Assembly (NCBI GenBank): GCA_036320915.1
Contig: JAXBDG010000012.1
Coordinates: forward strand, 576,001 to 640,000
Direction: 5' to 3'
From: Linnemannia elongata
Taxonomy: Eukaryota; Mortierellomycota; Mortierellomycetes; Mortierellales; Mortierellaceae
Length of the DNA stretch: 64,000 bases
Positions 5,802-29,043 of the stretch are shown here, piece by piece (the first letter of the stretch is position 1; the number at the start of each line of letters is the position of its first letter). Both the position numbers and the translations under genes were made by a program. The notes beneath the pieces were generated by a model. That model was given only the letters and a program-made list of their open reading frames with translations. It was not told the DNA's origin and did not search any database.

Positions 5802-7923
5802 ACTAGGAAGTTGCCATTGAGTATTATATATATTAAACTAAGCAGCGTTTTTATTCCTGTAGTGTATGCAATGTGAAATGGCTGGAAAGAAGAAATGGTG
5901 AGAACGAAGCTTGGGAATCATTATTCCTATAGTTGGGGTGTTTATATAACGTTTATTAAATATTAAAATAGATTGATGAAGTTATAGCGCAGCTCTAAGC
6001 ACGATGTTGCGAGTGAAATGTCTAATGGGGGGGGTAAGAGGTGTTTTTGGGGGGAGAGTAAGTTGGAGTGTAAGTGGGTTATCTAGAATAAGAACTTTAA
6101 GATTACACGGGTTGGAGCATCGTGATAGGGCTACATAGAGCTGCCCATGCGCAAAGACAGACTGTGGAAGGTATATGCCTGTCGTTGTCAGTGTTTGGCC
6201 CTGCGCTTTGTTGATAGTAAGTGCAAAGGCCGGGCGGATCGGGAACTGGAGGCGCGTAAACTTGACAGGGGAAGTGCCATCGTCGTTTGTTGTAAGTGGT
6301 ATACGGGGGATAAGAACGATGTCGTCGGAGAACGATCCAGCTAATATCCTTGCCTCAATTACAAACACCCCTAGCTTCGTGATCTGGAGTCGGGTCCCGT
6401 TACACATTCCTCGTTTGGTGGAGACATTCCGAAGTAAAATGATTGGCTGCCCCACCTTTAGTGAGAGTTTGTGAGGCGGAATGGAGGAATGGTCAAGCGT
6501 GTTGAGGAACTCGGGCTGGAAATGTACAGCTTGATCAGGGTTGATATCCGTGTAGTCGGTACTGGTATATGTGCGTATTTGATCCGAGTGCAACATTTCG
6601 GTGGCAAGGTCGTTGATTTTGTTGATGTCGACGTTTAGGGGACATAGGATTGCCCTGTCGCCAAAAATGTCGGGTGTGAACGTTGGTGAGTCAATGTCGG
6701 GGAATATGGTGCGTATCAACTGGCGCTCATAATTGTCGTCGATATTATCGCCTGTTGTCTGTAGGATAACAGATTCTGGAATCTTGACAAAGTCGTGGTA
6801 GTTGCCATCGCTGTATGTTGGTTCAGAGCCATTGCCAATCCTGAGGAGGTAGTCGATGTATGGTTGATGTAGGGTGTTGTTGTCGATCCGTAGGTTTTTT
6901 GTGAGCTTTAGTATGGTAACATGACTCCAGATGGGTGACGAATTTTTTAAAGATGCGTTGACAATGTCGGATTCCGTACCGTGTAAGACAATTGGAAGTG
7001 TTTGGCGGAAGTCACCACCAAAGACAACCACCTTGCCGCCGAAAGGAATATTTGGTGATTCCATAAGGTGTCGAAAGGTTCTGTCCACAGCCTCAAACAC
7101 CTTCTTGTGGAGCATCGGGCTTTCGTCCCAGAATATTGCTGATGCGTTGATAACGGCACGACCTAAGATGCATCTCCTGGTGAGGAAACATGTTGTGTTG
7201 TCTGTGATGGAGATAGGGATGTTGAATGCCGAATGTGCTGTATGTCCTTGGTGTAGAATGATGGAAGCGATGCCCGAGGAAGCAACCACAACAACTGATT
7301 TTTTCAGATGCCCGCGTACATATTCAATAAGGGTGTTGTACAGAAAGCTCTTTCCCGTGCCACCGGGGCCGTCGATGAAGTAAAGCCGCGCCTTTTTGGG
7401 TGTGGTGATTGAGGTGATTACGGTGTTGAAAATTGCTTTCTGTTCAGGTGCCAATTGAGCCATGTGTGTTGATGCCAGTTGTTCATACTCCTGACTTGTT
7501 GGTTCATGATGGGTTCGTTCATGGTCGCAGTTATTGTTCCATGGATAGTTGATGATGGCGTCGTCCATGTGTTGAGGTAGAGTAAGGTACTTATCGAGGC
7601 TGGTCTCCATGTCGATAAGCAAGTTGTTGATATGATATAAAGCGTTGTATCGAGCGTCGATTTGCGCCTGCGCGTCATTGGCTGGGTATAGTCCGCACTG
7701 CTTGGCTTTGTGCAGGAGATCGGCGGAAAGCGCATCGGAAAACTGATCCCAGAGCCTTCTTGGATTGGATGGAGCGCAGAAACAGAGAATCATCGCGAAT
7801 AGATAGCGGAGGTGTCGTGGGTGTTGTAACTCATCAGCCTCCTTCAAGCAGTTGATCCATTCGGCATCGTCCTTTAGAAGTCCTCGCGCTTGTGCCGCCG
7901 CCCAAAAGGATGGGTATGTTATG

Positions 7924-8140
7924 CAGTGTTTCTCACGAATATTCGAAATTCGACATTCGATTCGATTCGATTCGAAATTTTCTTATGGTCGAATCGAATG
8001 CCATTCGATTCGAGATAGTCGAATGAAAGTCCCATTCGATTCGATTTTCATTCGATTCGACTTTCATTCGATTCGACTCCCATTCGATTCGACCTTCATT
8101 CGATTCGACCTTTATTCGATTCGATTCGATTCGATTCGAT
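7924..8140 (+). repeat. Left terminal inverted repeat of hAT, TTCGA array
   Basis: About 217 bp built from ATTCGATTCGA units separated by short spacers (CTTTC, CTCC, CTTC and similar). It is the reverse complement of 11538-11741 including the order of the spacers, apart from the outermost 60 bp, which differ more. The pentamer core TCGA is palindromic, so each array can also fold on itself. Confidence 0.93.
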
Positions 8141-8260
8141 CATAGACTATTCTCCTACTCTTCCCCAACTCCCTCTAATTAGCATACCTACTGGCTGCTA
8201 ATCGCACATCTACTCTATCTAATACTCCTTTTTCTTGTACAATAACCTACACCATTCAAT

Positions 8261-10689
8261 TTAATATTTATTGCCAGTGTACTGAGCTGAAAAATATCCA
8301 TACCAGGAATCCAACAGCATTTGCTCCTGGATCTTGTTAGGACCAAGGCGATTCCTGGTATAAGGCAAAAGGGGGCGGGCTTTTGAGAAACATCGTTCAG
8401 AAGGGGCTGACGTTGCTGGAATAGCAAAAAAATCTCTTGCCATCCTAGCTACCTGTGGGTACGACCCACAGTTCTTTCTCCAGAAAACCAAAGGCGTCTC
8501 CATGACTTTTGGACTTGATACAAACTCCTCTAGCTCGTCTGCCTTTGGTTTCTTTATCATTCCAAGAAGAGCAAGCTCAATGTCGTCGTTACTGGCATCC
8601 AGAGATGGTTGGGTGAGATCCTCGCTTGTGCTGGCCGCATACTCCCTCCATGCGTCTCGAACAGCCTTCTTGGCGCTTTTTTCATATTTAGACCCCCATC
8701 TCTGATCGGTCCAATACTGGAAGCGCATTGCTGGATGGATTGCAGTTGCCACTGAATAAATGGGCGAGTTGTCGGTTGCTGCATAGTAATAGCCGAGCTT
8801 GTCGTATGCTGCTTTTGCTCCACGGCATATTTCCGGTAGGCGATCCTTATTATCCTTCATGAAGTTCTCGATAACCTCCATAAGATTATTGTAGACAACA
8901 ATGGTCATGGTGATTGTTGCATAGGTCTTGCTAGCGCAGACTTTAGTTGTGAGGGTGTCGAAGCGTTCCAGAAGCTCTTTTAGGGTGTTGAGTCGGCGCC
9001 ATTCCACCTCGTCCAGAATGCAGTCGGTGAGATTGTCGTCAAGCAATACAGAGGAATAGATGGCCTTGCACTCGATTGCGCGCACAATCATGGTGTATGA
9101 GGATCCCCAGCGCGTACACACATCAAGCAGAGGAGAGAAGCCTTGCCTCCTTTCTGAAGTTGCTGTAAGCTCCTTGAACTTTTCAAGTCGAGGTGGAGAT
9201 CGTCTGCAATTTAAAAAAATAAAATCAATGATAGTTCAGCATGTACTCGTTGGCAATATATAATAGATCCAAGTTCATACTAAAGAACGTTCAACAGTTT
9301 GCATACAGCAAAGCGTACCTGATTTTGATAATGCCCTTTCTCAACTTTTGAAGAGCAAGTCTAGTGGTCGACTTATCATCTATTGGCTGATCAGTGTCTT
9401 CTTCATCCTCCTCCATCGCAATGCTGGTACGAACGAACCCCTCTGCGTCATCATCATCTTCAATATCCATGAATTCCGCGTCACTCGGTGCCTCTGCTCC
9501 TAGACCATCTTTGCCAAGCATGGCCTGTACAGCAAGATTTATAACGTGCGCAAGACAAGGCACATGCTGCTTGCGTGCATTAAATGGTCTCCTACAGATC
9601 AATGTAGATATAATGGATATGGATTAGAACGTTCTACATTTAAAGCGAACTCTTCTAAGGAAATAGCTGTTAAAACCTTTTTGTATACTTACCACTCATT
9701 AGAGCGCGAGTGTGTATATTCCTCAAAATCCGCCGTTAGTTTAAGGACATTAGAGCCGCTGTCGCTGGTGATCGACATGACCTTCTGCTGCAAGTTGAAG
9801 CGCTCCACAACCTTGACAAACGCCTGCATCAACGCCTTGCCCGTGTGCGGGCCTTTTAGGTGTTCAAACCCCAGGGTGACATCCTGCTGTACCCAGTTGT
9901 CATCAATCCAATGAGCAGTAACCGCAAGAAATGACGACTGAAAGGGACTTGTCCAGCCGTCTAGAGTGAAAGCAACCATGGGCACCGTTACAAGGTCGTC
10001 ACGAATAAGTCCCTCATACTCCTCATGCAATTTTGACATCTGCATTGAAAAATGGCAATATTATTATGGTTATTTCATAACGATTACGTTATTGAAAATA
10101 TACATTTGATTTGTTGCTCTTTTGTTCATCTTCCATAAAGTTGACGTACCCTTCTGGTAATTGTATCATTAGATGGTAATTGTAAGTCCTCTATAGAGGG
10201 CGCTGCATGTGCAAGTTCGAGTAGCTCCTTCAGCAAAGGCGACTGTACGAAGGTGTAAGGCAGCTTGTGGCGGACCAGAACTTTACAGATATGCCGTTCA
10301 AATGTATCTTTTGTAAAATGACTTGAGGATCGCTTTCCATTGTTTGCCAGAGCGTATTCGATTGATCCTGTTCGTCCTACATCTGGACTGAGTCTATGGT
10401 CGCCCATGAGGTGATTTCTGACGTTGGTGGTTGAGCCCTTGATCGATACCCATCCAGTTTTTTGTAAGCAGCCTGGGACTGTACAGTAGATCCTGACAAT
10501 ATCATCAGCATCGGTCCGCTTCACGGCCCAGCGCCAAACCCAACTGCCCTCCTTGTTCGGCTTTGTGATGTTTGGTGAAAGTTCTGGAGATGGAAGTTCG
10601 AGTGTGGAGACGGAGCCAAAACTCTGTTGATCTGCTGTAAAGTTTTGTCGATCGGCAGCGTCATTCTCTTCATCTTTCGCCCTCGATGT
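8261..10689 (-). CDS. hAT-family transposase with BED zinc finger
   Basis: Four coding exons are supported: 10689-10150, 10039-9693, 9591-9319 and 9203-8261, each bounded by GT and AG. The last three total 1563 nt and the first is 540 nt, so the phase is zero throughout (701 codons including the stop). At least one further 5' exon must exist, since 10689 follows an AG acceptor and has no in-frame ATG. Domains: a BED-type finger (C-x4-C ... NH-x4-H, exon 1), the DDE core with TLDGWTSPF and SDSGSN, an acidic insertion (exon 3), and the C-terminal hAT dimerisation region with PSER-FS and NRLGPNKI. No stop or frameshift is seen, so the element could be autonomous. Confidence 0.88.
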
Positions 10690-10699
10690 CTACAGTTTA

Positions 10700-11530
10700 T
10701 AATGAAAAAAAAAAAGATTAATATTACAGTAAGTTAATATCTGACTGCAGAAAAGGTAAGGAGATCAAGATCAATTGAGCGGTTTTCATTACAGAAGAAA
10801 GCAAGGTATCCAGTGGTTGAGCCATATCCTTATGAGCAACAAGAGGAATGGATAGCAGAAATGGAGAAGCAGAAACGTGGGTTTATTGCAAGCGTGAAAC
10901 AAGAAAAGAAGGCAAGAGAGAAAGAGCAAGAAAAGGCAAGAGAGAAAGAGCAAGAAAAGGCAAGAGAGAAAGAGGAAAGAAAAAGAGGTGAAAATGAAAA
11001 GAAAGAAGGATATTTTATTACGGACTACAAAGGGGGTACGTGCTCTCTAAGGGGAGTCGTCACCACTTCACCTGCAGCAGTGGAGAGTGCCGTAGAGCTG
11101 GGTTCAAATCTCTTAACCAGCAAGAAAAAAGAAACGTTTGGGCTTAGTCATTTGTGCTCTCCATTTCTACGTTCATGTTGCCGTTTCTAAAATATCTATT
11201 TGTACATGCTATTACCTTTATATCTGCTTACGCCTTTTTTTATCGATATGCTATTAGCTTTACATCCGTTTACACTTCTTAGCGTTCATCTTCCCACTTG
11301 TCCCTGTATTCTTCTGTCTTGCTTTCGTTCTTATCCTTGCCTTTCTTTATGGTTTCCTTTTTCTTCATTTTGCAATAAAAAACAATTAAACCTAGCAATA
11401 TCACGCATGTTCTTTCTTCTCACTCTTCACTTTCTCTTACTTCAACTCATCTTCGGCTCAGAACCTGGCAGAAAGGTTCTTAGAAATAAAAAAAAAATGT
11501 GAGGGTTGTGTAATATTATCATATATGGAA
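10700..11530. other. hAT 5' region with K/E-rich repeats and a B-box-like motif
   Basis: On the plus strand 10813-11190 is open and encodes a lysine/glutamate-rich stretch containing three tandem copies of a 24-bp unit (AAGGCAAGAGAGAAAGAGCA). I do not regard this as a convincing gene. Near 11100 the sequence GGTTCAAATCTC resembles the RNA polymerase III B box, but no A box or complete tRNA fold could be found. The rest is probably the promoter and first exon of the transposase on the minus strand, unresolved. Confidence 0.35.
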
Positions 11531-11537
11531 ATGATAA

Positions 11538-11741
11538 GTCGAATCGAATCGAATCGAATCGAATGGAGGTCGAATCGAATGGGAGTCGAATCGAATGAAA
11601 GTCGAATCGAATGAAAATCGAATCGAATGGGACTTTCATTCGACTATCTCGAATCGAATGGCATTCGATTCGACCTAAAAAAATTCGAATCGAATCGAAT
11701 GTGGCTTGTATTCGATTCGATTCGAAATTTGAGAATCACTG
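11538..11741 (-). repeat. Right terminal inverted repeat of hAT, TTCGA array
   Basis: Reverse-complement partner of 7924-8140, composed of GAATCGAATCG units, ending in GAATCACTG directly before the target duplication at 11742-11749. Confidence 0.93.
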
Positions 11742-14700
11742 ATGTTATGCCATTGAACGACCTTAGCTCCTCAAAGCTTTTGGCTCCGGCGACATGCATA
11801 AGCAAAACTCTGAGCATGTATCGTTCGCCTTCCCGTGGGTGTACTGTATAGATACGGGAAATAACATTCTGTCGTCTTTGCCGTTTGCGCCAGGTTCGAG
11901 ATTGGTGATCGTAAGAATAATGCTCTGGCAGTTGATAGTATGTGTACTTTTGAGCCTCGTTGTCGCGGTTGTTGAGCTTAAAGTACGCCATAAGCATACT
12001 GTCGTTGTTTTTGTTGATCGACTTCTCCAGTGTAGCACCCTTTTTCTTGATCGTCACCATATGTTGTCCAGGCAGGTGTACTTGTAGGCGAGTGACGGAA
12101 GGAGAGTGTCCATGCAAGGGTAGCTTCAGTAACCTCCACATCGCTTCACAGGCTGATACGTAACGGGCATCGAGATATTCGGTTATCTCATCGCGGTCGG
12201 ATCCGGCAGCGAGTCCAAACTTGTTTAAAAAAATGATAATTAAACAATGACAATGATTAGTAATATTAAAGACGTTCAAAAAAAAAATATCTATGGTACA
12301 ACAGTAAATGATTCACAACAAAAAGTGAATTAGTTACCATGGCGCGATCATGGCCCTTGTGCACGTATTTGTACAAATACTTGACCGCTTTAATAGAGCT
12401 GCATATCTCAACATTGATGTGCGCGTCATATTTTGTGGTCAGCCAAGCATTGTATGGGACGACCCAGGTATTGTCAACTTGTTGGTTACGACGGTTAATG
12501 TAATAGGGTCCTTTTCGGCGTCGGTATAATGGGTAGCTGTCCTTCTGCTTGATAGTTGTATCTCGGAGTGGCTTAGGGAATCCCTTTGAACAGTACCACT
12601 TTCCGTTGCTGCCTTCGACCATGCAGGGTGAATCCTTGTGATCCTCTCCGCAAGGTCCATGAATCATCGAGCGAGTGACAGTTGCGTAGGTGAGAGGGTG
12701 TGTATGTTTGTCCGGTAGCTCTGCAGAAACAATGGCATCGAAGTCGGCTGGTGTTTTCGGCTTATGGGCGGGATCCAAAATCAAGAGAATGTGACAATGA
12801 GGCAAGCCTCTCTTTTGAAATTCAATCACCCAGCACCATCCGATAACTTTGCCCAAGACATCATGCAGCAACAGATCGTCAAGGAGGGACTTGAGTTTAA
12901 TGGCGAATACTCTTGTTGTCAGGTCAGGACGATCAGAGGCTGTTTGGCCCCCAAGGAGATACTTAGTGATCTCTGGCCACTTGGGGTTACAGGTAAAGGT
13001 TATAAATAGATCGGGCTTGCCCAATCTGCTTACAATCCCCATAGCGTCTTGAAACTGCTGCTGCATATGCCGAGGGCCACCAGTGAATGTGGACGGTAGG
13101 ATGGTTGAACGACTAACATCGGCAGGGGTGCAGCCATCGTTTGCTGAATACGCATCGGCCAATCCTTGGAAGTGGGCTGAGAGGTAGTCGTCTTGGTTCT
13201 CTCGGTACCATCGAAGTCGCTCGCCCTCCACTTTGGCGTACTGGTCCACCACATATTGCTGAAATAGCCGACCGAACATATGGAGATAGCACCGTCGATC
13301 GTAAGTGGAGAACGGGCGCATTTGCAGTCGATATGCGTAAAACTCCCGGCAGGATACAAACTTGAAAGCCGTTTCCTGTCCATGTTCAGTTGGTATTATG
13401 TTGTCTTCGTCTTGAGCTGTTGGTAGACCGTAACTTTCGATGATGTCGTCAATGTCAATGTTGCTATGACGACGATGTTGTTGGTTGCGGTTGATGCGAT
13501 CCAAGATAGTATGGTTGGTGTAGGTAGCATCACTGGTGTTTGATGTCGCAATGTCGTTGGCGATGCCCAAGGTGTATAGTGAAGTATGGGTAGGAGCATT
13601 TTGAATGATGTTGTATTCGTCGGTGTGGAAATAGTCGAAAGGGTTGAGTCTGAAACTGTTTTTGAGATAAGTTTTGTACGTCCATCCATGCTCTCCTGCT
13701 GGGTGCATGAGAACATAATATAGAGGGTCGTAAGAAGGATGCGTTTCCCATATGCGAGTGAAAGGGCGCCCAGAACCGGACTCGATCGTTTCCAGTAAAA
13801 TATCCCTGTCGCCGTGAAACATGTCGCCGGACCCTGGAAGAAGAACGGCGATTTCTGTTGAGGTGGGTTTGTTATATCCGTATAGCTCTTTATTGGTTGT
13901 CGAACTCCGTATATCTCCGCGCAGAACAAAGGTGAGGTTATGGCTTGAGTTGATTTCATGTTGTCTCATTGTTTTGTACACGGTGCTGAATGGATTGATG
14001 GGGGCGATCCAGGCTTCCAGATCCTTGAGCAAGGCAATGCTGAGTTGATTTTTAAAGACCTTATTCCTGAGAGTTGCTTGTTGGTGAGGGTCGTAAAAAT
14101 AGATTTGAGAGAAGCCTGGAGACTTGTTACTTGGCGGAAAGACTGGGCCGATACTGTGCATCACTTGGCCACTGATGCGGAAAACAAAGGCACCCTTCTT
14201 GGCGTTAGCGAGAGTCTGGTCGAGATTGCACCGCATTGATGCGAATGCCATAGCGGAATTATATTTTCGGATATCCTGATAAAATGTCTTCCGTCGAAGC
14301 AAATCCATGATCTTGTTGTAGGGCATGATCTGGGGAATGGTGATCTGGCCTTTGCCGCAGCAAATGGAAAACAGGGGCCTAGTTCGAGATCCAGCTGTTC
14401 GTTCCTGCACCCACACTAAAGCAAAACAATGTGGGCATTCAGTCATGTCCTGAAGGTTATGGCGCAATTGTCGTTCATCCACATCTGGTCCACAGATTAG
14501 GTCCTGGGAGAAGTTTCGCCGAGCGATAGGAGTGGTGTATAACTTGTTAAACGGGCATTGATGAGACGCTTTGGTGCGGTGAGATGTCTTGCAGCAAGAA
14601 GCGCACATTCCTTGTTCTCTGAACGAAAGTGGAAATGGAGCCGCCTCAGGCAGAGCATTGGTGCTGCTAGCATAGCATATGTATGAAAATTAAAAATTAA

Positions 14701-15418
14701 TATAAATACTTTCCAATTAATACTACAACATAACAGAAACAGGATGAGATAATTACCTATTTGCACGTAGAACATCGTTCTGGTTTTCTGCCATATCAAC
14801 ATCATCATCATCTTCATATTCGTCATGCTCATAGTCGAAGTCGCTGTCGTTTTCATAGTAATCCAAAGGACGTGTGTCGATGCATATGGAAGATGGCGCT
14901 GACGTTTTTTCAGAAAAGGGCACATTGGTTATGGCATTAGATGTGCTGCTTGACATATCACCCACTGCATCTGCACGACTAATAGAGTAAAAGGATGACA
15001 TAAAAAATATAATAATTAATAAGAGCACCATTTCAGACCTGATTTGCACCTTGACAGCACTATAATCACGTGATGATAAGGACGAAGGATACTTAAACAC
15101 CTTCGACCCTAAATCAAACAAACCCTAAAAGCCCAAGGACTCCTTCGCATAAAAGTGCGAGCATCTGATTTCACACTCTTCCAAGCAAGATTCCCAGCGC
15201 TGCATCGATCCTTCAAGGGTGTCGACACAGTTTCTGGATTCACCTCCTCGAAAGCGTCATCATCATCTATTTTTTTCCACCAATCACTCACATTTCACCC
15301 AGCAAAGACCTCTTAAGGTCATCTGATCGACCTTTTTTCGGCAGTTTCCTTCCCCTTCCACCGAAATCCAACCTACCTGCCCTAAAAAACCCACCCCAGC
15401 GTTCCATTCCATTGAACC

Positions 15419-17257
15419 ATGACCGGACAACATCAACAAACACAGCAGCACCGGTCCAACAAACCATCGACAGGCGGCTTCCAGCTTTTACCCCTCAATG
15501 GGGGCGACGTCGACATGCTGCATGGTGACAGCGGTGACACCGACACGCAAGTCACAGAAACCCCTACCAGCCTTGCAGAACCCACCAAGGAGCTAACTGA
15601 ATTCAGCATCGACACCGGCATCCAGGAATTCGTCATCAAGGAGTCAGAGTACAATGCTGGCAGAGCGGTCAAGGACCCGGTCAACAGTCTCCTTTATGAT
15701 CTGACAGGACAAGTCACCATTATCGGCAAACCCACCATCCGATACCTCCAAGTCGGCAGCAACAAAACGGAGAGATACCTGTCTGTCAAACTCAGCGACG
15801 AGCGTTCCAAGGCACATCTCCTTGCACTGGCCTACAAGAATCCGAACACGGATAACGACAACCAGGCTGGGGAGGACACTCAGGAGGAACGACCCCCAGC
15901 ACGCTTCACTCTATACACGGACACAATGGCAGCCGAGAACAGAGGGCGCCAAGTCGAGATTACCTCACTCCAACCAGGAACAACCAAGGACAAAATCAGA
16001 GGAGCATTCACCCCTCTGGGGGAAGTCGAATTCGTCGACATTGCTCACAAGAGATACGGTGCAATGGTAGCGGCCACTGTCACTTTCGTTACCGACAGAC
16101 CGGTCAAGGAATTGCAAGAGCAAGCTACAAGAGTCATGTTCGTCGGGAATGACTCGGGACGGATCACAAGACTAGGAAACGAAGAGATTGTCTTTCACAA
16201 AGACCTGGACCGTAAGTTGACAAACCTCCCCAGACATGCGACACCTCTGACCCTAAAAAGTCTGTGCAGCAAATTTGGAAATTGCTCGGTTACCATACCA
16301 TTCAATTTTAATATGACACGCAGAAAGAGGGAGGCATTCTTTTCGTTCACTTCCAAGGAGACGTTCGACCAATTGACCGGGAAGAATTTCTCATTCGGCA
16401 ACACTATTATGCAGTGGGTTGAGGTGGGAACTAAGTTGTGCAACGAGTGTGGATCGCCAGACCATTTGATCGCAACATGCCCAGAAGTGGCGCTGTGGAA
16501 AGAGCGGGCTGCTAGACGTGTAGCGACACCACGAGCAGCCAACGCGGTGGCCCCCCCGTCTACTAACAAAAATCGTTACAATGGGGCGGTGCCCAAGGCG
16601 CAAGCCGTAGCCCAACCTAATCAGATAGGCCCGGCATATAGCTCGATGGTGAAGCAGGACAAAACCCAGAAAAGTAAGGAAGCACAGATGAACCAGGTAA
16701 GTGCAAACACCGCCAACCAAGAAAACATTGAGGAACTGAAAAGACAAATTCAGCAACAGCAAGCAATGATCAAGAACCTGCAAGAGAGACTAGAAATTCG
16801 GGAAGCAGCGGAAAGGAGAGAAAAAATGGAACAAGAAAATACACAAAACAAGATGATTAGTATGGAAGAAAAAATTGGTACCATTGTAGCAACAGCGGTG
16901 GCAGAGGCTATGACCAGTGCAATGTTGAATATTAGGATGGAGACATGGGTAGCACTTAAAATGTTAAAAGAGGATATGGCAACTGAAACAGAGGGAGCAA
17001 AAGATGAAATCAAAAGGAGAAAACAACCATCCAGAGGAGTAGCAGCAGCCCAACAAGCAGATGAAGAGCAAAGTAGGCAAACGGCGCAAGCTCCAAGCAT
17101 CGCTGAGTCATTTGAGAGTTATAGCAGGAAAATCGCACAGGTCATGAGTCGTAATGAGAACACGCAATTCTCTCCTTTCCTCAGCGTACCTCAAACAATT
17201 GTAGAAACGGGTCAAACCAACGGAGCGAACACATCATCATCCCCTAACCATCAATAA
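15419..17257 (+). CDS. LINE ORF1, gag-like nucleic-acid-binding protein, 612 aa
   Basis: The frame starts at the ATG at 15419 and ends with TAA at 17255-17257, the last base of which is the first base of the ORF2 ATG. Residues about 175-245 look like an RRM-type fold (GRQVEITSLQPGTTKDKIR then GAMVAATVTF). A CCHC zinc knuckle C-x2-C-x4-H-x4-C (CNECGSPDHLIATC) lies near residue 341. A glutamine- and lysine-rich coiled coil follows at about 425-500. ORF1 proteins of this kind bind element RNA and form the ribonucleoprotein used for target-primed reverse transcription. Codons are uninterrupted, consistent with recent activity. Confidence 0.93.
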   Translation: MTGQHQQTQQHRSNKPSTGGFQLLPLNGGDVDMLHGDSGDTDTQVTETPTSLAEPTKELTEFSIDTGIQEFVIKESEYNAGRAVKDPVNSLLYDLTGQVTIIGKPTIRYLQVGSNKTERYLSVKLSDERSKAHLLALAYKNPNTDNDNQAGEDTQEERPPARFTLYTDTMAAENRGRQVEITSLQPGTTKDKIRGAFTPLGEVEFVDIAHKRYGAMVAATVTFVTDRPVKELQEQATRVMFVGNDSGRITRLGNEEIVFHKDLDRKLTNLPRHATPLTLKSLCSKFGNCSVTIPFNFNMTRRKREAFFSFTSKETFDQLTGKNFSFGNTIMQWVEVGTKLCNECGSPDHLIATCPEVALWKERAARRVATPRAANAVAPPSTNKNRYNGAVPKAQAVAQPNQIGPAYSSMVKQDKTQKSKEAQMNQVSANTANQENIEELKRQIQQQQAMIKNLQERLEIREAAERREKMEQENTQNKMISMEEKIGTIVATAVAEAMTSAMLNIRMETWVALKMLKEDMATETEGAKDEIKRRKQPSRGVAAAQQADEEQSRQTAQAPSIAESFESYSRKIAQVMSRNENTQFSPFLSVPQTIVETGQTNGANTSSSPNHQ

Positions 17258-20200
17258 TGACAGACACCACAAACACCAACGGGTACCTTCGCATCGCATC
17301 CATCAACGTGCAAGGGGCAAGGGAATATGGGTTTTTTAAAGCGGTGGCAAGATGGGGCGTGGATATCGGGAATTTCGATATTATAGCGTGCCAAGAAACG
17401 AAACTGCAAGCGGACAAAACTACAAAATACTTGTTATTTGATAAAAACGAACGGAGCCAATATACCGGCTTTTGGGCAAATGCAAAGACCAGAGAGATGG
17501 GAGCGGGAGTAGCATTCTTAGTAAAAGAATCATGGCAAAAACACATCATAAGAAGAAATACACACAACGGTAGAGGCATTTCTTTAGATTTTGGATATCA
17601 TTTGGGGGCCCACTTTCGGATAGTGAACTGTTATGTTCCTGCAAGTAGAGACGAAGAGAGGAAAAGAGAGCTTCAAGAGTTAACCGAGTGGGCAAAAAAA
17701 GAAATTCAAGAGGCAAAAGAGAAAGGCATGGAGACCATTGTGTGCGGGGATTTTAATGGTGTAGTGAACCCCTCACTCGATCGGTCGAACGAAAAGAAAC
17801 AAAACACTAACATAGAAAACGGTCTTCTGGAGTGGTTGGTGGAAAACCAATTCACAGATAGCTTCCGCGAGCTTCATCCAGAGACCCGCGCTTATTCCTT
17901 TCGTGACATTAGCAGATTAGACATGATCTGGCTAGCGGGTGGTCTGAAAGGTGGCCTGACGGAAGCAGGAATGATGCCCTTGGAGGGCGGCATTCACTCG
18001 GATCACAAATGCGTTTTTGCAGAACTAGATGTGCGGACTCTAGTGACACCAACCCCACTTCATATTCTAGAGCAATATAGCTCTCTAGAACATAAAGTAA
18101 AGGTTGACGAAGCCTCAGAGGAACAATGGGAATCATTTTCTATTCGACTCGAACAGGTCTTGGTTGCAAAAATAACACAGGGATCCACGGGGATCAATAT
18201 CATGGAAACGGACACATCAAATCCAAGGGAAGCCCCGATCCTAGCGGAGAACATGATCGACTTTGCATGGGATAACCTCGCAGCGGCAATCATGGATGTG
18301 GCTCTGGAAACCCTCCCTCGGAAACGAGTGGGGAAACAGAGTATGGCCTATCGTACCAATGTACAAAACTACCGGAGAGGACGCTGCCACGGAGAACTGC
18401 TGAGACTATCACACGTTTGGTTTGTCAATCCCAATTGCCCACCCCAGGGTAAGGAGAGACGACAGATGGCTGCCCATGAAACCATTTGCAATGTGTGGAA
18501 CAAGGTCAAAACAGATTTCCCGGAGACCAGAATTGCAGAACCACCGGAATTACAAGCTGAGCGCAGTGAATGGGAACAATGGCGCAACACAGTTAAGAAC
18601 GAGTGGAGCGAGCAGCAACGCATCAGACGGAACGAAGAAAGAAAGCAGAAGACCAAAGATATCGCAGAGGCTATTGAGAGGCGCGACATGCGTTTTTCAA
18701 CCAACACGAAATCTACAATCCAAAGCATTCTCGAAACAAACCGCAGCCATGCTACGTTAGACCGTGTGCAAATCACGGTTGATGACCGCATATCCATTTC
18801 GGACCACCCATCCGATATCCTTACGAATGTCCGACTATACTTCGAAAAGTGGCATGGTCCAAGGCAGAGCAAGGGTATCCCCAAAGGTTCTCTTTGGGAG
18901 CAGATATACCAGCCAGCTGAATACGTCGAAGCAGAATGGTATGACCACCTGTTAGATGTGCCAAGTGACGCTGAGATAGAACGAGCAGTGAGCGCTGCAC
19001 CTTCTGGTAAAGCAGCAGGGGCATCAAAGGTAACGAAAGAACTGTTGATACATATGGGGGAAATGGCAACACGTCTCTTTTACGGGATAGTGAAAGCTTG
19101 TGTCCAATACCAAAAGATACCCCTGCAGTGGACGGAAGGTGTGATCTTCTGCCTCTCCAAGACCAACCCATGGACGGGAAGCCTTGCCGACGTTCGACCG
19201 ATCACACTCCTGGAACATGGGCGAAAAATTCTGTTTTCGATCCTGACAGAACGCCTCTCAACTACCATGCTGGAACACAATATTCTAAAAGGAGCCAACT
19301 TCTCGGTATTAAAGGGGACATCAACAGCAGATCCCATCCACGCTCTTAATGCCGTCATGGAGGACGCGCGACAACACAAGAAGGAGGTCTGGGTCTTACT
19401 CCAGGATATGCGTCGGTGCTACGATTCGGTCAACTGCCATGAGGGGGGGATGCTAGCCCTGGCCCTCCAACGCTTGAAGGTGCCAGAAAGCTGTCAGAAC
19501 CTGCTGTTGTTTATTACCAAGAACAAAAGCAACCGAGTGATTACCAGTTATGGATTGACCGACAAGTACAAACCGATGTGCGGTCTAGACCAAGGCGGCG
19601 TGGAATGTCCACTCCTGTGGAGGATAGCATACGACCCCCTACTGTGTGCCATCGACTCATTGGGAATGGGGTACACAATGTCGACACCGCCGGCCCCGGG
19701 AAAGGCGCCACCCATGGTTTCGGACTTGGCCTTCGTGGACGATACCAGCCTCGTGGGACCAGGACACACAGAACTCACAAGGATGACCGACGTCGGCACG
19801 GAGTTCTTTGGGATGCACGGCATCGAGATCAACGGCAAGAAAACACAATTACTAGCAATCAACCCAACACACATCGACAACATCAACTATGGAGGAAGTT
19901 CGATTCAGCCACAGGTGGCAAGCAAAGCGTCGAGAGTCCTAGGGGTGTGGCTTGCAGCGGATGGATCGGCCAAAACAACAGCTGCTATGGCAATGGAGGA
20001 AACGGAGACGGTATGCGAGATCCTGCTCAGGAAATCGGTCACCGATAAACAGTGTATTTATATCATCAACGCGGTTCTTATCCCAAGGCTGCTCTACCGG
20101 ATGACAGCGCAGATCCCAACATGGACAGTCATAGAACGCATCTCCAAGAAATACAGGACGGTCGTGCGACAAAAACTCGGTTTACCCAGCTCAACACCAG

Positions 20201-23200
20201 CCAGTATATTGCACCACACAAGGCTGTACGGACTACGGGACCTCAAGGACGCTCTCGCCGAACAACACGTCAGCACATTGCATCTGAGAAGCACCCAGAA
20301 AGGGCTCATAGGAGACCTAACCCATTGCCGACTTCAAGACCTGCAAAGGGCGGCAAGACTGCGGGAATCCCCACTTTCCAATCCGGCCATCGCCAGCAAG
20401 TACACCCAACACAACCTCATCGCCAGAGTGTGCCAGCTAATGGTGGAACGAGACGTCAATCTATGCGATGTGAGCGCAAAGGAGGGCGAACGAGTGCTGT
20501 TGTCAAAGGTACTGACACCTGAGATATACGTGAAGCACAGCAAGTGGATGGAGAGGGACAAGGTCTTTTACCTGGAGGATATAATCAACGAGGATCGGAG
20601 TCACACCAGACCGTGGAAAGAAGTTGCGCGTACACATGGGATCAAAGGAGACAGAGTATGGTTTGCAGCGGTGTGTCAGGCCATTTCAGAGTTCCCGCAG
20701 ATCGAGATGAATCGTGTGGGGGAGCGCGAGGAGGAGAACCAGGGGCACGCTTGCGAAACACAGGAAGATGCCGAGGAGGAAGAGGTCGTCTTGTGGGAGT
20801 TCGGAAGCGAAGATGAGGAGGAGCCGCCGATGGAACAACAACAACAAAATCAACAAGAAAAAGACAACAACAGAGAAAAGAACGGAAAAAGAAAAGAAGA
20901 CGGCAGCGATCAAGAGGTGATAAGAGGTAGGGAAAGGGCGGTTGCGATAAGCGACGACAGCCACGGTCCATTGGAGCATCGCTGTCGAAGCCAAGAAAAA
21001 GAACAAGAACAAGAACAAGAAAAAGAAAAAGAAAAAGAAAAAGAAAAGGACCTACAAGAGGGTATTTTGGGTTCGGTTTCTTCCTCGTCACTTTCAGATT
21101 TGAATTCCCCTTTCTTAATTTCTTCACCCCTTACTTTTTGTATGCCCAATATATTCTTTCCCACTCACAACTCGTCAGCACAATCCGAACACACACAACC
21201 CTCCCTTTTTGTTTCTTCACAGTCAACCCAACCCCCAATTGTAGATTTAGATTCCCCCTCTTTTTCTTCTTCCTTCTCTTTTTCGTCACCCCTTTCACTG
21301 CCAGCAACACAACCAACCACACAACCAGCAACACAACCAACCACACAAAACAGAACACCAGAAACAACACGCACCATCGACTTACTACAGCAAACGCCAG
21401 AAAAACCCAGAATCCCATGGACCCCACCCAAGGCGACAGGAGACAAAGCAGTGGACAGGGCGAACTTGAGGGCGTTCAGGGAGAGACGCAATCAGATTAT
21501 TGACCGTCACACAAAGATTCGACGAGAGAAGGAGGTCAGAGACAAATTCAGACAACAGGCAGCAAAGGAGGCCGCAGAGGAGGAGAAGCGTCGAAAGAAG
21601 ACCGAGAAACAGGCTGAGCTAGACAGGCGGAGACAGGAGTTAGAGCGAGCGCTCCCGCCCAAGCGGAGACTAATGCGCGCGGTAAAGGCTCGGCTAAAGG
21701 AAGTGGAGGCGGAGGCTTACCCGCTGCTCATTGCCATCAAGGAACGGATACAACATCATACGGCAAGCAATACACCGAAACACAGCTACAACCACATTAA
21801 CATGGACGAGGCCACACAGGCGGCCATGGAGGAACAGAGGAAACACACACAGCCAGGAGTACGATATATTTATTCGGACGGATCAATGGTCAACCTTGGG
21901 AAGGCCAAGTGCTCGATGGCTTTCGCGGTGGCAGGAGAACAGCAACCGGTCATACAAGGAACAGTCAAAGGATTCGCATCATCCATCAAGCCTGAACTCA
22001 TGGGGCTCATAGCAGGCATCATCGCGACACCACAAGACCAGGACGTGTGCATCCGATCCGACAATCAAAAGGTGGTCAAGATGTTCAATGACATTGTCGT
22101 CAACAGGAGGAGAGCGTCGGTGAGGGCCAAACTGAGGTGCGATTACGCGGTGGAATGGGCAATAGTAGCGCGGATATGCAGCGAGCGGACAGGATCCACA
22201 ACCGTCGAATGGGTCAAGGGACATCGCGGCGACAAGTGGAATGAGGCAGCAGACAAAGCGGCCAAGGAGGCCCAGGCGTTGGTAGGAAAAGAGTGGGAGG
22301 TCAGAGCGGAGGATCAGGACGACCTGCGTTACACAGCAAGAATGGCCGGCACTACACTCGAGATCGATACCAGACAGGCCCTGAAGATGCAGACAACCAG
22401 ACGGTGGCACCAGACATGGAGATCACTCAAGAGGCACAAGAGGTCGATCCAGGACTATGAAGGCACAGACTGGCTCGGTACTCTTGCTATTATCCACAAC
22501 AACAAACCAGTACACACATTCTTCAGTTCGCAGCAGGACACACGACTACGCAGCCACAGGATAAAGAAAATCCATGGCATGCTACCAACAATGGACGCCC
22601 TTCATGCCCGACGACCAGACCTGTACAAAAACGATCAGTGCCGACAGTGTCATGCGACGACGGAGGACAATGAGCACGTATGGTTATGCCCAGAGAGCAA
22701 GGAGGCCCACGATGAAATCTGGAAGGACGGACTCGGGAGGATCGACTTCTGGGGAGAGATTGCCACGAAACACTACAACAGAGAGAGGAAGAAGAAAAGG
22801 AAGGAGGGAGAAACAGAGCCCAAGGAGATCGGGTGGGTAGCGACGAGCGGCAGAGCATGCAAAGCGGCACTGAGGAGGATCATCCAATGGCCAAGCACGG
22901 AGGACCGTAATGAAGGATACACGGGCGATGAGAAGTGGACGGTCTGCCACATACTCAGAGGACTCGTACCCAAGGCTCTTGCCACGGAGTGGGCCAAAGT
23001 CTTCAAGGAGATGCCCAAGAGCGTTGCAGAACACGTCAGCCGACTATTTTGCAAGTACATCGAGAAGGAGGGCCGAGAAAAAATATGGAAACCGCGATGC
23101 GAGAGAACCGTCGAATGGGAGAAACAGCAGGGTATCACAGAAAGACGGAAGCACAAACCCCCGGAGGAGCGGCCCAGGTCCCAATGGCAACAAATATATG

Positions 23201-23400
23201 GACGGAAACCCCGAGCGAATGAATGCGAGTGCGGGCGGCCTCTGGCGGAGCACGAGGAGGGACGATGCCCTGGCGTTCAGAATGATACACATGCAGCCGA
23301 CCGAGCGGTGATCGAGGCCTTACTAGGCCGGAGGAGAATGGATATTATGGAAAAAAGAGGAGCGATGACAGTTAAAGAGTTCGAGACGGAAGACACCTAG
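17257..23400 (+). CDS. LINE ORF2, endonuclease / reverse transcriptase / RNase H, 2047 aa
   Basis: Residues 1-260 form an APE-type endonuclease: SINVQG, QETK, CGDFNG and SDHKC. Residues about 600-900 are the reverse transcriptase, with RPITLLEHGRKIL, the motif A aspartate in LLQDMRRCYDS, GLDQGG and the catalytic FVDD at about 826-829. A long low-complexity acidic and KE-rich linker occupies about 1150-1420. RNase H follows (YSDGSM near 1539, SDNQK, EWVKGHRGDKWNEAAD), then a CCHC finger (C-x2-C-x8-H-x4-C) near 1795, and a second cysteine cluster close to the C terminus (CECGRPLAEHEEGRC). All key residues appear intact. Translation probably follows ORF1 by reinitiation at the TAATG overlap. Confidence 0.96.
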   Translation: MTDTTNTNGYLRIASINVQGAREYGFFKAVARWGVDIGNFDIIACQETKLQADKTTKYLLFDKNERSQYTGFWANAKTREMGAGVAFLVKESWQKHIIRRNTHNGRGISLDFGYHLGAHFRIVNCYVPASRDEERKRELQELTEWAKKEIQEAKEKGMETIVCGDFNGVVNPSLDRSNEKKQNTNIENGLLEWLVENQFTDSFRELHPETRAYSFRDISRLDMIWLAGGLKGGLTEAGMMPLEGGIHSDHKCVFAELDVRTLVTPTPLHILEQYSSLEHKVKVDEASEEQWESFSIRLEQVLVAKITQGSTGINIMETDTSNPREAPILAENMIDFAWDNLAAAIMDVALETLPRKRVGKQSMAYRTNVQNYRRGRCHGELLRLSHVWFVNPNCPPQGKERRQMAAHETICNVWNKVKTDFPETRIAEPPELQAERSEWEQWRNTVKNEWSEQQRIRRNEERKQKTKDIAEAIERRDMRFSTNTKSTIQSILETNRSHATLDRVQITVDDRISISDHPSDILTNVRLYFEKWHGPRQSKGIPKGSLWEQIYQPAEYVEAEWYDHLLDVPSDAEIERAVSAAPSGKAAGASKVTKELLIHMGEMATRLFYGIVKACVQYQKIPLQWTEGVIFCLSKTNPWTGSLADVRPITLLEHGRKILFSILTERLSTTMLEHNILKGANFSVLKGTSTADPIHALNAVMEDARQHKKEVWVLLQDMRRCYDSVNCHEGGMLALALQRLKVPESCQNLLLFITKNKSNRVITSYGLTDKYKPMCGLDQGGVECPLLWRIAYDPLLCAIDSLGMGYTMSTPPAPGKAPPMVSDLAFVDDTSLVGPGHTELTRMTDVGTEFFGMHGIEINGKKTQLLAINPTHIDNINYGGSSIQPQVASKASRVLGVWLAADGSAKTTAAMAMEETETVCEILLRKSVTDKQCIYIINAVLIPRLLYRMTAQIPTWTVIERISKKYRTVVRQKLGLPSSTPASILHHTRLYGLRDLKDALAEQHVSTLHLRSTQKGLIGDLTHCRLQDLQRAARLRESPLSNPAIASKYTQHNLIARVCQLMVERDVNLCDVSAKEGERVLLSKVLTPEIYVKHSKWMERDKVFYLEDIINEDRSHTRPWKEVARTHGIKGDRVWFAAVCQAISEFPQIEMNRVGEREEENQGHACETQEDAEEEEVVLWEFGSEDEEEPPMEQQQQNQQEKDNNREKNGKRKEDGSDQEVIRGRERAVAISDDSHGPLEHRCRSQEKEQEQEQEKEKEKEKEKDLQEGILGSVSSSSLSDLNSPFLISSPLTFCMPNIFFPTHNSSAQSEHTQPSLFVSSQSTQPPIVDLDSPSFSSSFSFSSPLSLPATQPTTQPATQPTTQNRTPETTRTIDLLQQTPEKPRIPWTPPKATGDKAVDRANLRAFRERRNQIIDRHTKIRREKEVRDKFRQQAAKEAAEEEKRRKKTEKQAELDRRRQELERALPPKRRLMRAVKARLKEVEAEAYPLLIAIKERIQHHTASNTPKHSYNHINMDEATQAAMEEQRKHTQPGVRYIYSDGSMVNLGKAKCSMAFAVAGEQQPVIQGTVKGFASSIKPELMGLIAGIIATPQDQDVCIRSDNQKVVKMFNDIVVNRRRASVRAKLRCDYAVEWAIVARICSERTGSTTVEWVKGHRGDKWNEAADKAAKEAQALVGKEWEVRAEDQDDLRYTARMAGTTLEIDTRQALKMQTTRRWHQTWRSLKRHKRSIQDYEGTDWLGTLAIIHNNKPVHTFFSSQQDTRLRSHRIKKIHGMLPTMDALHARRPDLYKNDQCRQCHATTEDNEHVWLCPESKEAHDEIWKDGLGRIDFWGEIATKHYNRERKKKRKEGETEPKEIGWVATSGRACKAALRRIIQWPSTEDRNEGYTGDEKWTVCHILRGLVPKALATEWAKVFKEMPKSVAEHVSRLFCKYIEKEGREKIWKPRCERTVEWEKQQGITERRKHKPPEERPRSQWQQIYGRKPRANECECGRPLAEHEEGRCPGVQNDTHAADRAVIEALLGRRRMDIMEKRGAMTVKEFETEDT

Positions 23401-23719
23401 TCTTACCCCTTGAACCGCCCCCGAAGGGCAGCAAGGGTCATCCGGAGGTATGCGCAGGTGCGCCTGGCGCAGATTACGGATTGTGTTTCCTCGGTTTTGC
23501 GCAGTACACTTTATCTATTCTGCTTTGCTATAACGACGTAGAATACCGTGCTCGCATGAGCTACACTTAGACTTCCGTTTTCGGATTAAAACTTTGACGT
23601 TCCAAAAAAAAAAAACCTAAATCAAACAAACCCTCTCTTATCTCTCATCCTCTTTCCCTGTCAGCCTTCTTGTTATCTCAATCATGGCTAATATTTCCCA
23701 TTAATAATTGATCGCATAA

Positions 23720-24338
23720 TTACTTCGTGTGTGCTTGGACTCCCTTGCAAAGGTGCGATGTTCTTCTAGAGTGATCTGATCCATAGCATGTTGAGCAAAA
23801 CAGGCTTTGTTTTTTATTTGGCGGTCTAGAAGGCAAACGCAATGAAGAGTGCCTTAGCAAAATAATAAAAGGCATATTACAAACAGCCCAATTGAAGTGC
23901 GGTGTGAAATTTGAGCCCATCTTACTGGTAGTTGTGACACTTTTTCGATTTTGCTGTCTTATGCCCTGAGTGGTGGCAGCTTTCACAGAGCACTGCAGAC
24001 TGGTCAATCCGGTCAGGTTGAGAATAGGTGATAGAAGAAGGGATATGGTTCAATTGAAGTGCAGGGTCAAGTGGAACAAACTGTTGTGTATTTGTGTTGA
24101 AGTAGAATAAAGGGTTGGCGTTTAGGGGATGAGAAGTGAGGGAGTATAAAGGTACATATTGAAGCTGGTCATTGGCTGTGATGGGAGCAGGATCAACGGT
24201 AGCGTATGTGAACTCGTTGGTGTGTACCCCATATAAAGGGTCAAAATGTTCCACAGGCAATGATAACATGGGCAAACCCAGGGGATCGATTGGTAACAAA
24301 TTATTGTTTTGGTTATTGATGTACTGGGGTGGTGGCAT
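23720..24338 (-). CDS. Helitron-borne double zinc-knuckle protein, 172 aa
   Basis: Two exons, 24338-23926 and 23825-23720, total 519 nt in frame; the split codon CA/A restores glutamine. The first 130 residues are rich in proline, asparagine and hydrophobic residues and have no recognised domain. The C terminus holds two zinc knuckles of identical spacing C-x2-C-x4-H-x7-C, one ending exon 1 (CESCHHSGH...C) and one in exon 2 (CSTCYGSDH...C). The Rep-helicase N terminus carries the same spacing (CASCCKTSH...C). The gene lies upstream of, and parallel to, the Rep-helicase in the original Helitron, separated only by the LINE insertion. I infer a nucleic-acid- or protein-binding accessory of the Helitron. 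Its function is unproven. Confidence 0.72.
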
Positions 24339-25189: not shown

Positions 25190-27088
25190 TCACATCTTCC
25201 TCTTTTTGCTGTCAGACACTTTTTCTTCTTTAATCTTGTTTTTTTTTCTGATAAGAACTTCCTCTTCTTCATCAGATTCAGTAGCATTTCTTCTTTTCAA
25301 GTTTTTTTTGTTTCCAGTCTCCTCGTCAGTGCAGTCTGGATCCTTTTTATGGTTACTCTTTTTGGCCTCTCCCTCGTCTTCAGTATCACTCTCCATATAT
25401 TTTTTCACCCCTTTTGCTTTTCCTGTTTTGTTGTCGGATCTGGTTCGATTGAGAGAATCGAAGTGAGACTGCTCACTCTCATGAGCGTCCACATCGTCGC
25501 CATCATCCACATGAGGGATATCCTCTCTGGATGCCTGTCGAGTTCGAACAGACGGACGCGAAGGACCTTCGCCATTGGCACCTTCGCCATTGTCGCTGGG
25601 AGATCGCTGTGGCGATGGAGACTCGGACTGATGAGCAGCAGCCCAATATCGCCAAGCTTCAATGAAGTCTGAAGGGAGCTCGCCATCAGGGAACAGATCA
25701 TAGATCAATCGGTTTCTGCGGGCATAGCGAATCATAGGGCAACAGTCCGTCTCTGGCAATGGGTCCGGCGCGTCCATACGCCATGATAAACAGCGTCCCT
25801 TCCAAGGCTCGACACCGTTTAGAAGGGGTAAGCCAAGACAGAGGCGGCAATTAAACTTCACGGCATCAGACCCGCGACAGAGCTTATGGCCCTTGGCTGG
25901 CCAATGGTGCCGGCAAGCAAGGACAGTGTTGCCAGATTTGTCTGGGAAGGTGGTGGGATCATATCCTCCGGTGTTGTAGTAGTTGCCGTCCTGCATTGTG
26001 TAGAACTGCACCCCTGTGCTAGAAGACGTAAAACTACCGGGAATAGCAGTAATTGTCGACTTGGTGGGCATGGTAACAGTGGCATCTGAGAGAACTGCAA
26101 CAGGATTTGTGGTGGCGGGAGTAGGAAATGGCCGGGCGCCACTCGCAGGAGAAACAGCGATTGACTTGAACGCCGTGGCGATAGTCTTGTGGTGGTTGTC
26201 AGTTGGCGCCGAGCTGACTGAAGGTTTTGCCTTAGGGTTTGCCTTGGCCTTAATCCCGCCATCACTGGTCTGTGGCTCATGCATCTTGTGGTCATGATAT
26301 ATGGTATCAAGCGCAGGATCGGGCACAGGATCAGCCTTGGCGCTATACTGGCGTTTCGTCTTGGACTTCTTGGAAGAGGACATGGCGACGGGGCCTGAGT
26401 TGCCATTCGACACTTGGTGATGAGGGGGAGGAGGGAAGTAAGAAGGGTAGGGGTGCAGGTAATGTTGTCCTGCAGATGATTGCATGTATGGGTAGACGCT
26501 GCTTGGAGGATACTGGGTAATAGGAAGAGAGTACCCGTGAATTGGCTCTGACCCCTGGGGCATCTGGTAGTAAGGATAGCCTGGAGGGATACTCTGAGTG
26601 TATCCGGGAGGATGACCATAGGGTGCAGCTGGGTAAACTTGATACCCTGGTCTAGGCGCAAACCCGGCCTCAGGTCCAGGTTGTGGATATCCTGGAAGTG
26701 CATGAGGGCTGGGAGGAGCATCATCAGCTGAGTCACGACCGTATGGCTCATCAGCATCGTTGTTGTAGTTGTTATCAGCGTCATCATCTTCGTCGGCGTC
26801 TGAGTGATGGTTAGACACGCTAGAACTTGCAGCCGCATGGCCACTGCTAGGTGCTATATGACCACCTCTAAGTAATAAATAATAAATATACAATACAATA
26901 GAAATGAACGTATGAATAAATTACGATGAGGATAAATAAAAGAAAGGGAAACCACTACCAAAACTTGAACAAAGCGATTATACGTATTACAGTGCTTACC
27001 TTCCGATAGTCTTGCCATCACGTAATTGAAGGGTACGTGTAGAAACAGACTTTGGTTCCTCATTCTTCGACCCTTTCTTTTTGGCCAT
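25190..27088 (-). CDS. Unknown 588-aa protein, Helitron cargo, low complexity with Cys/His core
   Basis: Exon 1 is 27088-27000 and exon 2 is 26867-25190, together 1767 nt in frame, joined at AG/GTAAGC and TTAG. The N terminus is basic (MAKKKGSKNEE). An acidic Asp/Asn stretch follows, then a long Pro/Tyr/Gly-rich region (about residues 70-190). A compact region near 350-440 contains CRHHWPAKGHKLC, NCRLC and a CC pair and may bind zinc. The last 100 residues alternate acidic clusters with KKSNHKK, KRR, RKKNK and KKRK, which look like nuclear localisation signals. I do not recognise a family. A nuclear, possibly chromatin-related protein is a guess. A three-copy minisatellite lies upstream at 27231-27455. 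Confidence 0.7.
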
Positions 27089-27230
27089 GATTCGTAAAGT
27101 AAGGAGTCGACTTTGGTGTTGCTATGGGATAGTGCTAATGAGGAAATGAAAAAAGGGGGGGAGAATGTACCACTTATACATTATTTCAAAAAGGAGAGCG
27201 ACAACGGATCGGACATGTGAAGGGAATGTA

Positions 27231-27455: not shown

Positions 27456-27469
27456 AACGCACTTGAAAG

Positions 27470-27509
<40 letters not shown>

Positions 27510-27900
27510 ATCTAATCACACAGACCAATGCACAATCGCGCTCCCACCCTCCATATCATATCTACTATACTCTCTTCACCCACTTCACCCTTCACCCAAT
27601 TTGCACAGACAAAACGAAAACAAAACAAATGAAGAGACCAAAAAAAGGAATTACGTATCTAACCAACACACAACTGATTCTCAATTGCACACTCTCAACC
27701 TCATGCCCCCGAGTTCATTGACTTGCACGAACGATACCAACGTAAACAGTGAAAAAAAAAAAAAAAAAAAAAAAGGTACCACGTCAAAGAGCAGACCGAT
27801 TCTTCCAAATTCCAAAATGCTCACAACGATGTTGCAGAAAGACGTTTACGTTTATTACACAAACAACAACAACAGAACAACATAGCAAGACACCACAGAA

Positions 27901-28532
27901 TCACTTGTCGCTGTCTATTCTGGGTGCACCATCTCCATCTCTACAATCTGCCAGTTGCAGCTGCAGGGGTACCGCTTGTGAAGAAGCGAGTAGCTCAAGT
28001 GCACTATCAATCAGATTGCGTTCGTATTCAACATACCCATCAATGTCAGCATCACCGTCCACCGTGCCGCGCGCAGTGACAACCACAGCATCCTCGCAGC
28101 CAGCCAAAATAAAGTCGACATCTAACCTCAACCACATTTCGTTTTGTCGCTCTTGCCACCACATATCATACCCTAACGAATCATTGCGGGAAGATACTAA
28201 CAATGACCCAGACTCAGACTCAGACTCAGACTCAGACTTAGACTCGGAACGATGCTGACGCTCAGGAACCATGAGCCCAAGGCCTGTAGAAATCAAACGC
28301 GTAGAAGCAGTACTAAATAAACCAAAAAAAAATAAACGAAATATAAAGAAAAAGTTAATGGAGGCTTGAGCAAACAATGCAGAGTAGAACACACAATCGA
28401 AACAACTCATAGCACACACCATAGCACACAACAGTGAAGGACTTAAACTTACTCGTGGCAGGACCCAGATATGACACGGCTAACATCAGTAGAAAAAGGT
28501 GCTATGGTAAATAGATCCGCAGAGCCGTTCAT
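27901..28532 (-). CDS. Unknown 163-aa acidic protein, Helitron cargo
   Basis: Exon 1 is 28532-28453 (ends before GTAAGT) and exon 2 is 28312-27901 (after TTTAG), total 492 nt in frame. A hexameric repeat GACTCA encodes a Ser-Glu run (SESKSESESESES) near residues 50-62. A more conserved-looking part follows (MWWQERQNEMWLRLDVDF). No transmembrane segment or recognised domain is visible. It is the 5'-most gene inside the inferred Helitron and is parallel to the other cargo genes. A simple A-run (about 27752-27774) lies just past its 3' end. The splice model is supported by phase but not by homology. Confidence 0.6.
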
Positions 28533-29043
28533 ATCAATAGAAAATGTAGGGGGTTATAGAGACAGAGGTATAGGGGGTTATAGAGAAAGAGGTAATGGAT
28601 GCAGAAATCGCGGGAAGATTTAAAGGTATTTGTGATTGTGATCTGTGTGAGGGTAAATGTGGGGGGAGGGAAGGGAAGAAAGAAGCACAACAAAAAGAGG
28701 AAACAGGAAACAAATCAAACAGTGATAGATACATTCTACATAATGCACTGTGCACCACCAAGAAAAAAACGAAGACAAAAGGATGTTGGAGAAAAAACGA
28801 ATCAGAAACAAAGACGGTGGGTGATAGATGCATGCTACATGCACTATGCACCACACCACCAAGCAAAAAACGAAAACGAAGATGAAAGGATGTCAGAGAA
28901 AAAAAGAATGAAACAAAAACAAAAAAAAAAAATACTACATTACATAGAAAAAAATGAAACATTTTCGGAGAATGATTCAAAGTGCGTAAATCACGTTACA
29001 GGGGCAAACTCGCTTATTCCTATAGTATATGTAGAATGTAGAA
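28533..29043 (-). other. 5' end region of the Helitron, no gene seen
   Basis: A purine-rich plus strand with many short frames but no convincing coding sequence. It would hold the promoter of the 163-aa gene and the Helitron left end. The terminal bases on the minus strand are TTCTACATTCTACATATAC, containing a short repeated TTCTACAT. Confidence 0.45.

Follow-up and report, generated by a model that had tools for sequence, protein, structure and literature searches.

Does a 23-kb stretch in the genome of Linnemannia elongata that bears a Rep-helicase and several further gene models represent a single transposon, and did that transposon carry captured host genes with it? A preliminary description of this DNA had proposed both, namely that one Helitron moved its Rep-helicase together with three spliced non-Rep genes. 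The window, i.e., the whole stretch of 64,000 nucleotides that we analysed, is C4:576001-640000 of a 51.1-Mb genome in 32 contigs, and its DNA is dense in mobile elements. We confirm that the 23-kb stretch is a genuine rolling-circle transposon that moved as a single unit, so that the first part of the proposal stands while the three non-Rep cargo genes do not. Instead, we consider it highly probable (about 85%) that this Helitron has two resident genes, gene A and a five-exon Rep-helicase gene, and was hit later by a LINE and a hAT element (Table 1).

Table 1. Coordinates of the Helitron, its genes, its flanking host repeat and later insertions (window positions unless a contig is given).
Feature	Position	Strand	Basis or remarks
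Helitron	5803..29043 (or, shifted by one base, 5802-29042)	-	second copy, 27 empty sites, 3' terminus in 14 places
Helitron copy 2	C4:221394-237384		genome match; same contig, 344 kb from window copy
3'-side half of split host repeat	5547..5801		repeat comparison, empty sites
5'-side half of split host repeat (outer limit approximate)	29044..29264		repeat comparison, empty sites
Unbroken host repeat (empty site)	57055..57535	-	repeat comparison, empty sites
Gene C, region with a short ORF (approximate limits)	27886..28255	-	
Gene A exon 1	27000..27088	-	identical to P0001 N-terminus; donor GTAAGC
Gene A exon 2, Cys/His-rich conserved region, stop included	25190..26867	-	
Probable Rep-helicase exon E1, zinc knuckle (earlier non-Rep model adjoining Rep)	23926..24338	-	
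Probable Rep-helicase exon E2, zinc knuckle	23724..23825	-	
Rep-helicase exon E3, acidic	14757..14978	-	
Rep-helicase exon E4, zinc knuckle and Rep domain (PHCH, KYLYKY)	12338..14666	-	
Rep-helicase exon E5, Pif1 helicase, split by hAT	5985..12219	-	
hAT	7924..11741	-	CAGTG...CACTG ends; transposase ORF between Rep and helicase ORFs
LINE	15127..23615	+	RRM ORF1; ORF2 with endonuclease, RT and RNase H; poly-A end

Termini and target site

On the minus strand, the ORF at 12269-14689 matches Helitron_like_N (Rep; E 6.6e-58) and the ORF at 5985-7982 matches PIF1 helicase (E 1.9e-65), and the catalytic motifs PHCH, KYLYKY and GPGGTGK are present in the Rep-helicase. The element is assigned to the Helitrons because of this Rep-helicase, the insertion without target duplication (see below) and a 3' end of the CTRR^T type. 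An endonuclease domain in the transposase and asymmetric terminal inverted repeats are traits of Helentrons/Helitron2, and such an endonuclease domain is absent from the scanned Rep and helicase ORFs.

The 3' terminus ATGGCAACNNCCTAGT has 14 matches in 51.1 Mb (versus 1 for a reversed control), which are the window element, its second copy, 11 elements of a sister subfamily and one other place. CTRR followed by T stands at all eight 3' ends that we inspected (window element, copy 2, X, Y, C6, C28 and window positions 2541 and 46747), and the CTAGT terminus claimed at 5802 is present on the minus strand. The 5' tip is built of a TTCTACA unit whose number varies between copies, so that this end is less sharply defined than the 3' one; it reads TTCTA in the window element versus TGTTCT in the sister subfamily (canonical Helitron 5' TC). 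The usual 3' subterminal palindrome or hairpin was not found in the window Helitron (z +1.12) or in the C6 relative (z +0.22), and at the 3' end of sister copy X we found a stem of 6 bp whose loop is an A-run (z -1.54), which was equalled by 18 of 200 shuffles.

The split host repeat had been correctly recognized, with one half ending at 5801, the other starting at 29044 and an unbroken copy further along the window. This repeat is dispersed, with at least 38 flank-repeat matches in the genome; at all 27 of these loci that were fetched the insertion point is intact, with the halves joined and no insert, and it is likewise intact in the window's 57-kb copy, at a second place in L012 and at one in L040. 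Exactly one base separates the halves in each of the 27 empty sites (C in 26, G in one). Because every empty site thus has one base more than the join proposed earlier, one terminal T belongs to the host and the element, from its CTAG 3' end at 5803 to its 5' end at 29043, measures 23,241 bp including later insertions; the previously given interval of 5802-29043 has both real termini but is one base too long. Since T stands at both junctions of the filled site, it can be read as A^TTCTA...CTAG^T (5803-29043) or as T^TCTA...CTAGT^T (5802-29042), and A^T and T^T targets are indistinguishable; an A^T insertion implies that the target copy had T at the variable base, where T is seen in none of the 27 empty sites. 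The earlier prediction of a target without duplication holds throughout these 27 sites. Within the flanking repeat, 5548-5709 matches eukaryotic LSU rRNA, and a piece of this match recurs at 62315-62427 and about 1 kb past the 3' end of copy 2.

Two copies with reciprocal later insertions

Similarity between the window element and copy 2 spans window positions 29039 to 5802. The flanks, compared over about 1 kb beside the window element and about 2 kb beside copy 2, have nothing in common but a 73-bp rDNA-like piece some 1 kb past the 3' end; two copies with different flanks bear out the claim of movement as one unit. Over 10,829 aligned bases of the common Helitron blocks we counted 14 substitutions, besides 101 gap positions that mostly stem from a tandem repeat. 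The native elements measure 10,915 bp (window copy) and 10,840 bp (copy 2), in good agreement with the roughly 10.9 kb deduced before.

The hAT element, flanked by the 8-bp duplication CATAACAT at 7916-7923 and 11742-11749, interrupts helicase exon E5 of the window copy, and its site is empty in copy 2. The LINE (ORFs at 15416-23397, plus strand) lies in the intron between E2 and E3 with a 19-bp duplication at 15108-15126 and 23616-23634, and this site is also empty in copy 2. Copy 2 in turn has its own LINE of the same family within the same intron, in opposite orientation, about 75-95 bp away and with its own duplication of about 19 bp, where the window copy is empty. The two Helitrons are thus reciprocal empty sites for one hAT and two LINE insertions. 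The two copies are damaged differently, the window copy by the hAT in its helicase exon and copy 2 by in-frame stops, one in gene A and one in E3; the window copy lacks the E3 stop. In the window, hAT and LINE together account for about 12.3 of the 23.2 kb, and such a bulk, along with Rep 5' exons taken for separate genes, can give a Helitron the look of a cargo carrier.

The order of events would then be that the Helitron entered the dispersed host repeat without target duplication as an element of about 10.9 kb, with gene A and a five-exon Rep-helicase on one strand and zinc knuckles in the first Rep exons, and that the LINE subsequently entered a Rep intron and the hAT the helicase exon. 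From established Helitron biology, the Rep protein (HUH, two tyrosines) would be expected to nick at the CTAG end, the helicase to peel off one strand, and the product to be joined between A and T.

Gene A and its conservation beside Rep

The first exon of gene A is given by database models; we located it in the window at 27088-27000, and the sister element has it too. Database matches of gene A are restricted to Mortierellaceae, the best being from Linnemannia elongata (98%) and the other named ones from Linnemannia and Haplosporangium. A Pfam search gave a chance-level match only, with no RPA or other model above chance, the two matches of a gene A profile against the PDB were both at chance level, and two AlphaFold models have very low confidence (mean pLDDT 31.8 and 39.6).

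The sister subfamily comprises 11 loci with 72% identity to the window element in Rep, 37-41% in gene A and 42% in E1. All 11 copies have the 3' terminus in common; one (C4:794397-805315, about 10.92 kb) was read at full length, and a second, on C8, agrees in its ends and differs in its flanks. Gene A lies upstream of Rep in the same order and on the same strand in 10 of the 11, the exception being a C23 locus where it has the opposite orientation and is displaced by 8.3 kb. Genome searches with gene A (all 18 candidates scored) and with E1 gave 13 matches each, which lie at the same loci as the 13 long Rep matches, with equal order and strand in 12. None of the 13 gene A matches in this genome stands away from Helitrons (12 collinear, one displaced beside a Helitron). 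More distant Rep loci, e.g., at C8:1.133 Mb, C4:738 kb and C17:268 kb, give no gene A match; the gene therefore appears confined to this branch and not general in local Helitrons.

Between the subfamilies, the kept codons of gene A (214 of 553 aligned) differ by 0.36/0.33/0.61 at positions 1/2/3, a pattern that fits purifying selection with saturated synonymous change; dN/dS from these codons is 0.47/3.2, with dS saturated. We regard gene A as resident because it holds the same place in the sister subfamily, and to judge by these comparisons it looks like a standing accessory gene and not a recent capture. This shared position and the failure to find a copy away from Helitrons here speak against its earlier description as captured cargo. 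As for function, our guess, by analogy with the part that RPA is thought to play in plant Helitrons, is a nucleic-acid-binding helper or regulator of transposition. It is a tentative idea, to which we give less than even odds, that gene A represents a novel type of accessory protein which a Mortierellaceae Helitron lineage requires or is regulated by, and which was gained before the two subfamilies split, and that short zinc-knuckle-only relatives may make trans-acting competitors. Degenerate pieces resembling exon 1 of the sister gene A occur at window 43130-43393 and in the C4:805590 region.

Resident genes or recent cargo

The gene model at 24338-23724 that adjoins Rep had been taken for another non-Rep cargo gene. 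In the window copy, E1, E2, E3 and E4 join through GT/AG borders into 3,066 nt in one frame with no stop, the same joining is possible in the sister element, and in copy 2 the single in-frame stop within E1-E4 is the one in E3 noted above. CxxC-H-C knuckles are recognizable by eye in E1, E2 and E4, and a Mortierella alpina Rep-helicase in the databases begins with such a knuckle. The model is therefore best read as zinc-knuckle exons encoding the N-terminus of Rep, with one gene as the better reading on these sequence features. We think it unlikely that E1-E2 form a separate third gene beside Rep, as the own ATG at the start of E1 and the lack of an E1-like part joined to Rep in any of seven database matches could suggest: against this stand the single open frame, the recurrence of the knuckle in E4 and the M. 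alpina protein, and zinc-finger-like N-terminal motifs are usual in Helitron transposases according to the accessible parts of PMC5148889 and PMC4778049.

If instead three host genes had recently been captured and carried along by a Rep-only Helitron, they would be expected inside its ends and to have moved with Rep, as they have; gene A moreover has no known domain, is restricted to Mortierellaceae among its database matches and, with no match at distant Rep loci, was gained at some time. We nevertheless judge such a capture improbable, since the same gene order recurs in 10 of the 11 sister copies, whose proteins are 37-42% identical (versus 72% for Rep), none of the 13 gene A matches is a parental copy outside Helitrons, and E1-E2 join Rep in frame. 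Least probable is that no transposition took place and that the locus reflects a segmental duplication, or a repeat split by unrelated rearrangement or assembly error. Two near-identical copies on one contig could point that way, but they are set in different flanks, the break points coincide precisely with conserved Helitron termini, the host repeat has no insert there in 27 of 27 fetched loci, and sister copies have the same ends elsewhere. A Helitron with two resident genes and later insertions remains our preferred reading; its native genes all lie on one strand, as had been noted for the gene models, and genes in this order without a Helitron were not found in this genome.

The most 5' of the supposed cargo genes, gene C, is a short ORF with a single database match, a protein prediction from Linnemannia gamsii with whose N-terminus it shares 46% identity over 70 aa. 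A noncoding reading was at first favoured because the homologous DNA is not open in two of the inspected 5'-end relatives, and was weakened because the L. gamsii prediction matched.

Comparison with known Helitrons

As far as described in the accessible parts of PMC4778049, the element resembles Helraiser/Helibat in its Rep-helicase, its CTAG 3' end followed by T, the A before its 5' end in the A^T reading, the lack of target duplication and a zinc-finger-like N-terminus. Unlike Helraiser/Helibat, it has a second gene, transposase introns, no 3' palindrome that we could find, and a 5' TTC in place of a clear TC. The same source reports that Helraiser without its 3' hairpin is still mobile at about a third of the normal level, and the hairpin is usual in Helitrons yet not strictly defining. 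Putative autonomous copies of HELPO1 from Pleurotus ostreatus, in the available portion of PMC4289320, similarly bear genes of unknown function without copies outside Helitrons, and one copy is interrupted by a retroelement; the cap genes there, compared by description, lie downstream of RepHel, whereas gene A lies upstream. Plant Helitrons with RPA (PMC4683698) likewise have a resident second gene in an autonomous lineage, but gene A matches no RPA Pfam model above chance. FoHeli of Fusarium oxysporum differs in its terminal sequences, and its ends have hairpins and inverted repeats (PMC5148889, accessible part).

Among the matches listed for Helitron literature on Mortierella, Linnemannia or Mortierellomycotina we found no description of this family, though earlier publication is possible. 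What seems new here is gene A as an accessory gene retained in a Mortierellaceae Helitron lineage. Overall, our verdict is one of ordinary Helitron mechanics combined with a lineage-restricted accessory protein without Pfam match, PDB match or reliable model. The locus provides a Helitron family of one early-diverging fungal lineage for which precise ends and empty sites are available, together with two near-identical copies and 11 loci of a sister family, and this makes the role of a resident non-Rep gene testable.

Further Helitron relatives

Beyond the elements described above, a genome search with Rep gave at least 44 further matches (56 of 95 candidates scored), some of which are more distant Rep cores, and the Helitron 5' stretch with its flank gave at least 67. 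In 17 fetched relatives (L035-L050 and L054) similarity to the 5' tip sets in at 29027-29047, as BLAST starts with individual ends unproven, and none begins well inside 29043; similarity continues to about 28098 at 70-88%, and the tips have one to several TTCTACA-like units. L059 matches the 5' stretch in pieces only. A pair of these related 5' ends faces each other head to head at C4:777.2 kb (L039, L045).

At least 28 loci match Rep residues of about 12-178 only, 27 of them without an inner stop, and seven have a window-like 5' end about 3.9 kb upstream. Such an open zinc-knuckle N-terminal fragment in many short copies might act in trans. Window 1-2541 and 44208-46753 (plus strand) are 3' parts, 99% identical to each other, of a different Helitron type that is internally deleted and ends with TGGCAACGCCCTAG followed by T; they have a helicase remnant and an open Rep N-terminus of 174 aa but lack a Rep core. 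An element related to them extends over about C28:179.6-184.7 kb. Finally, window 48650-53806 (plus strand) holds an ORF of 1719 aa in which ARM-like repeats and many WD40 repeats were recognized.
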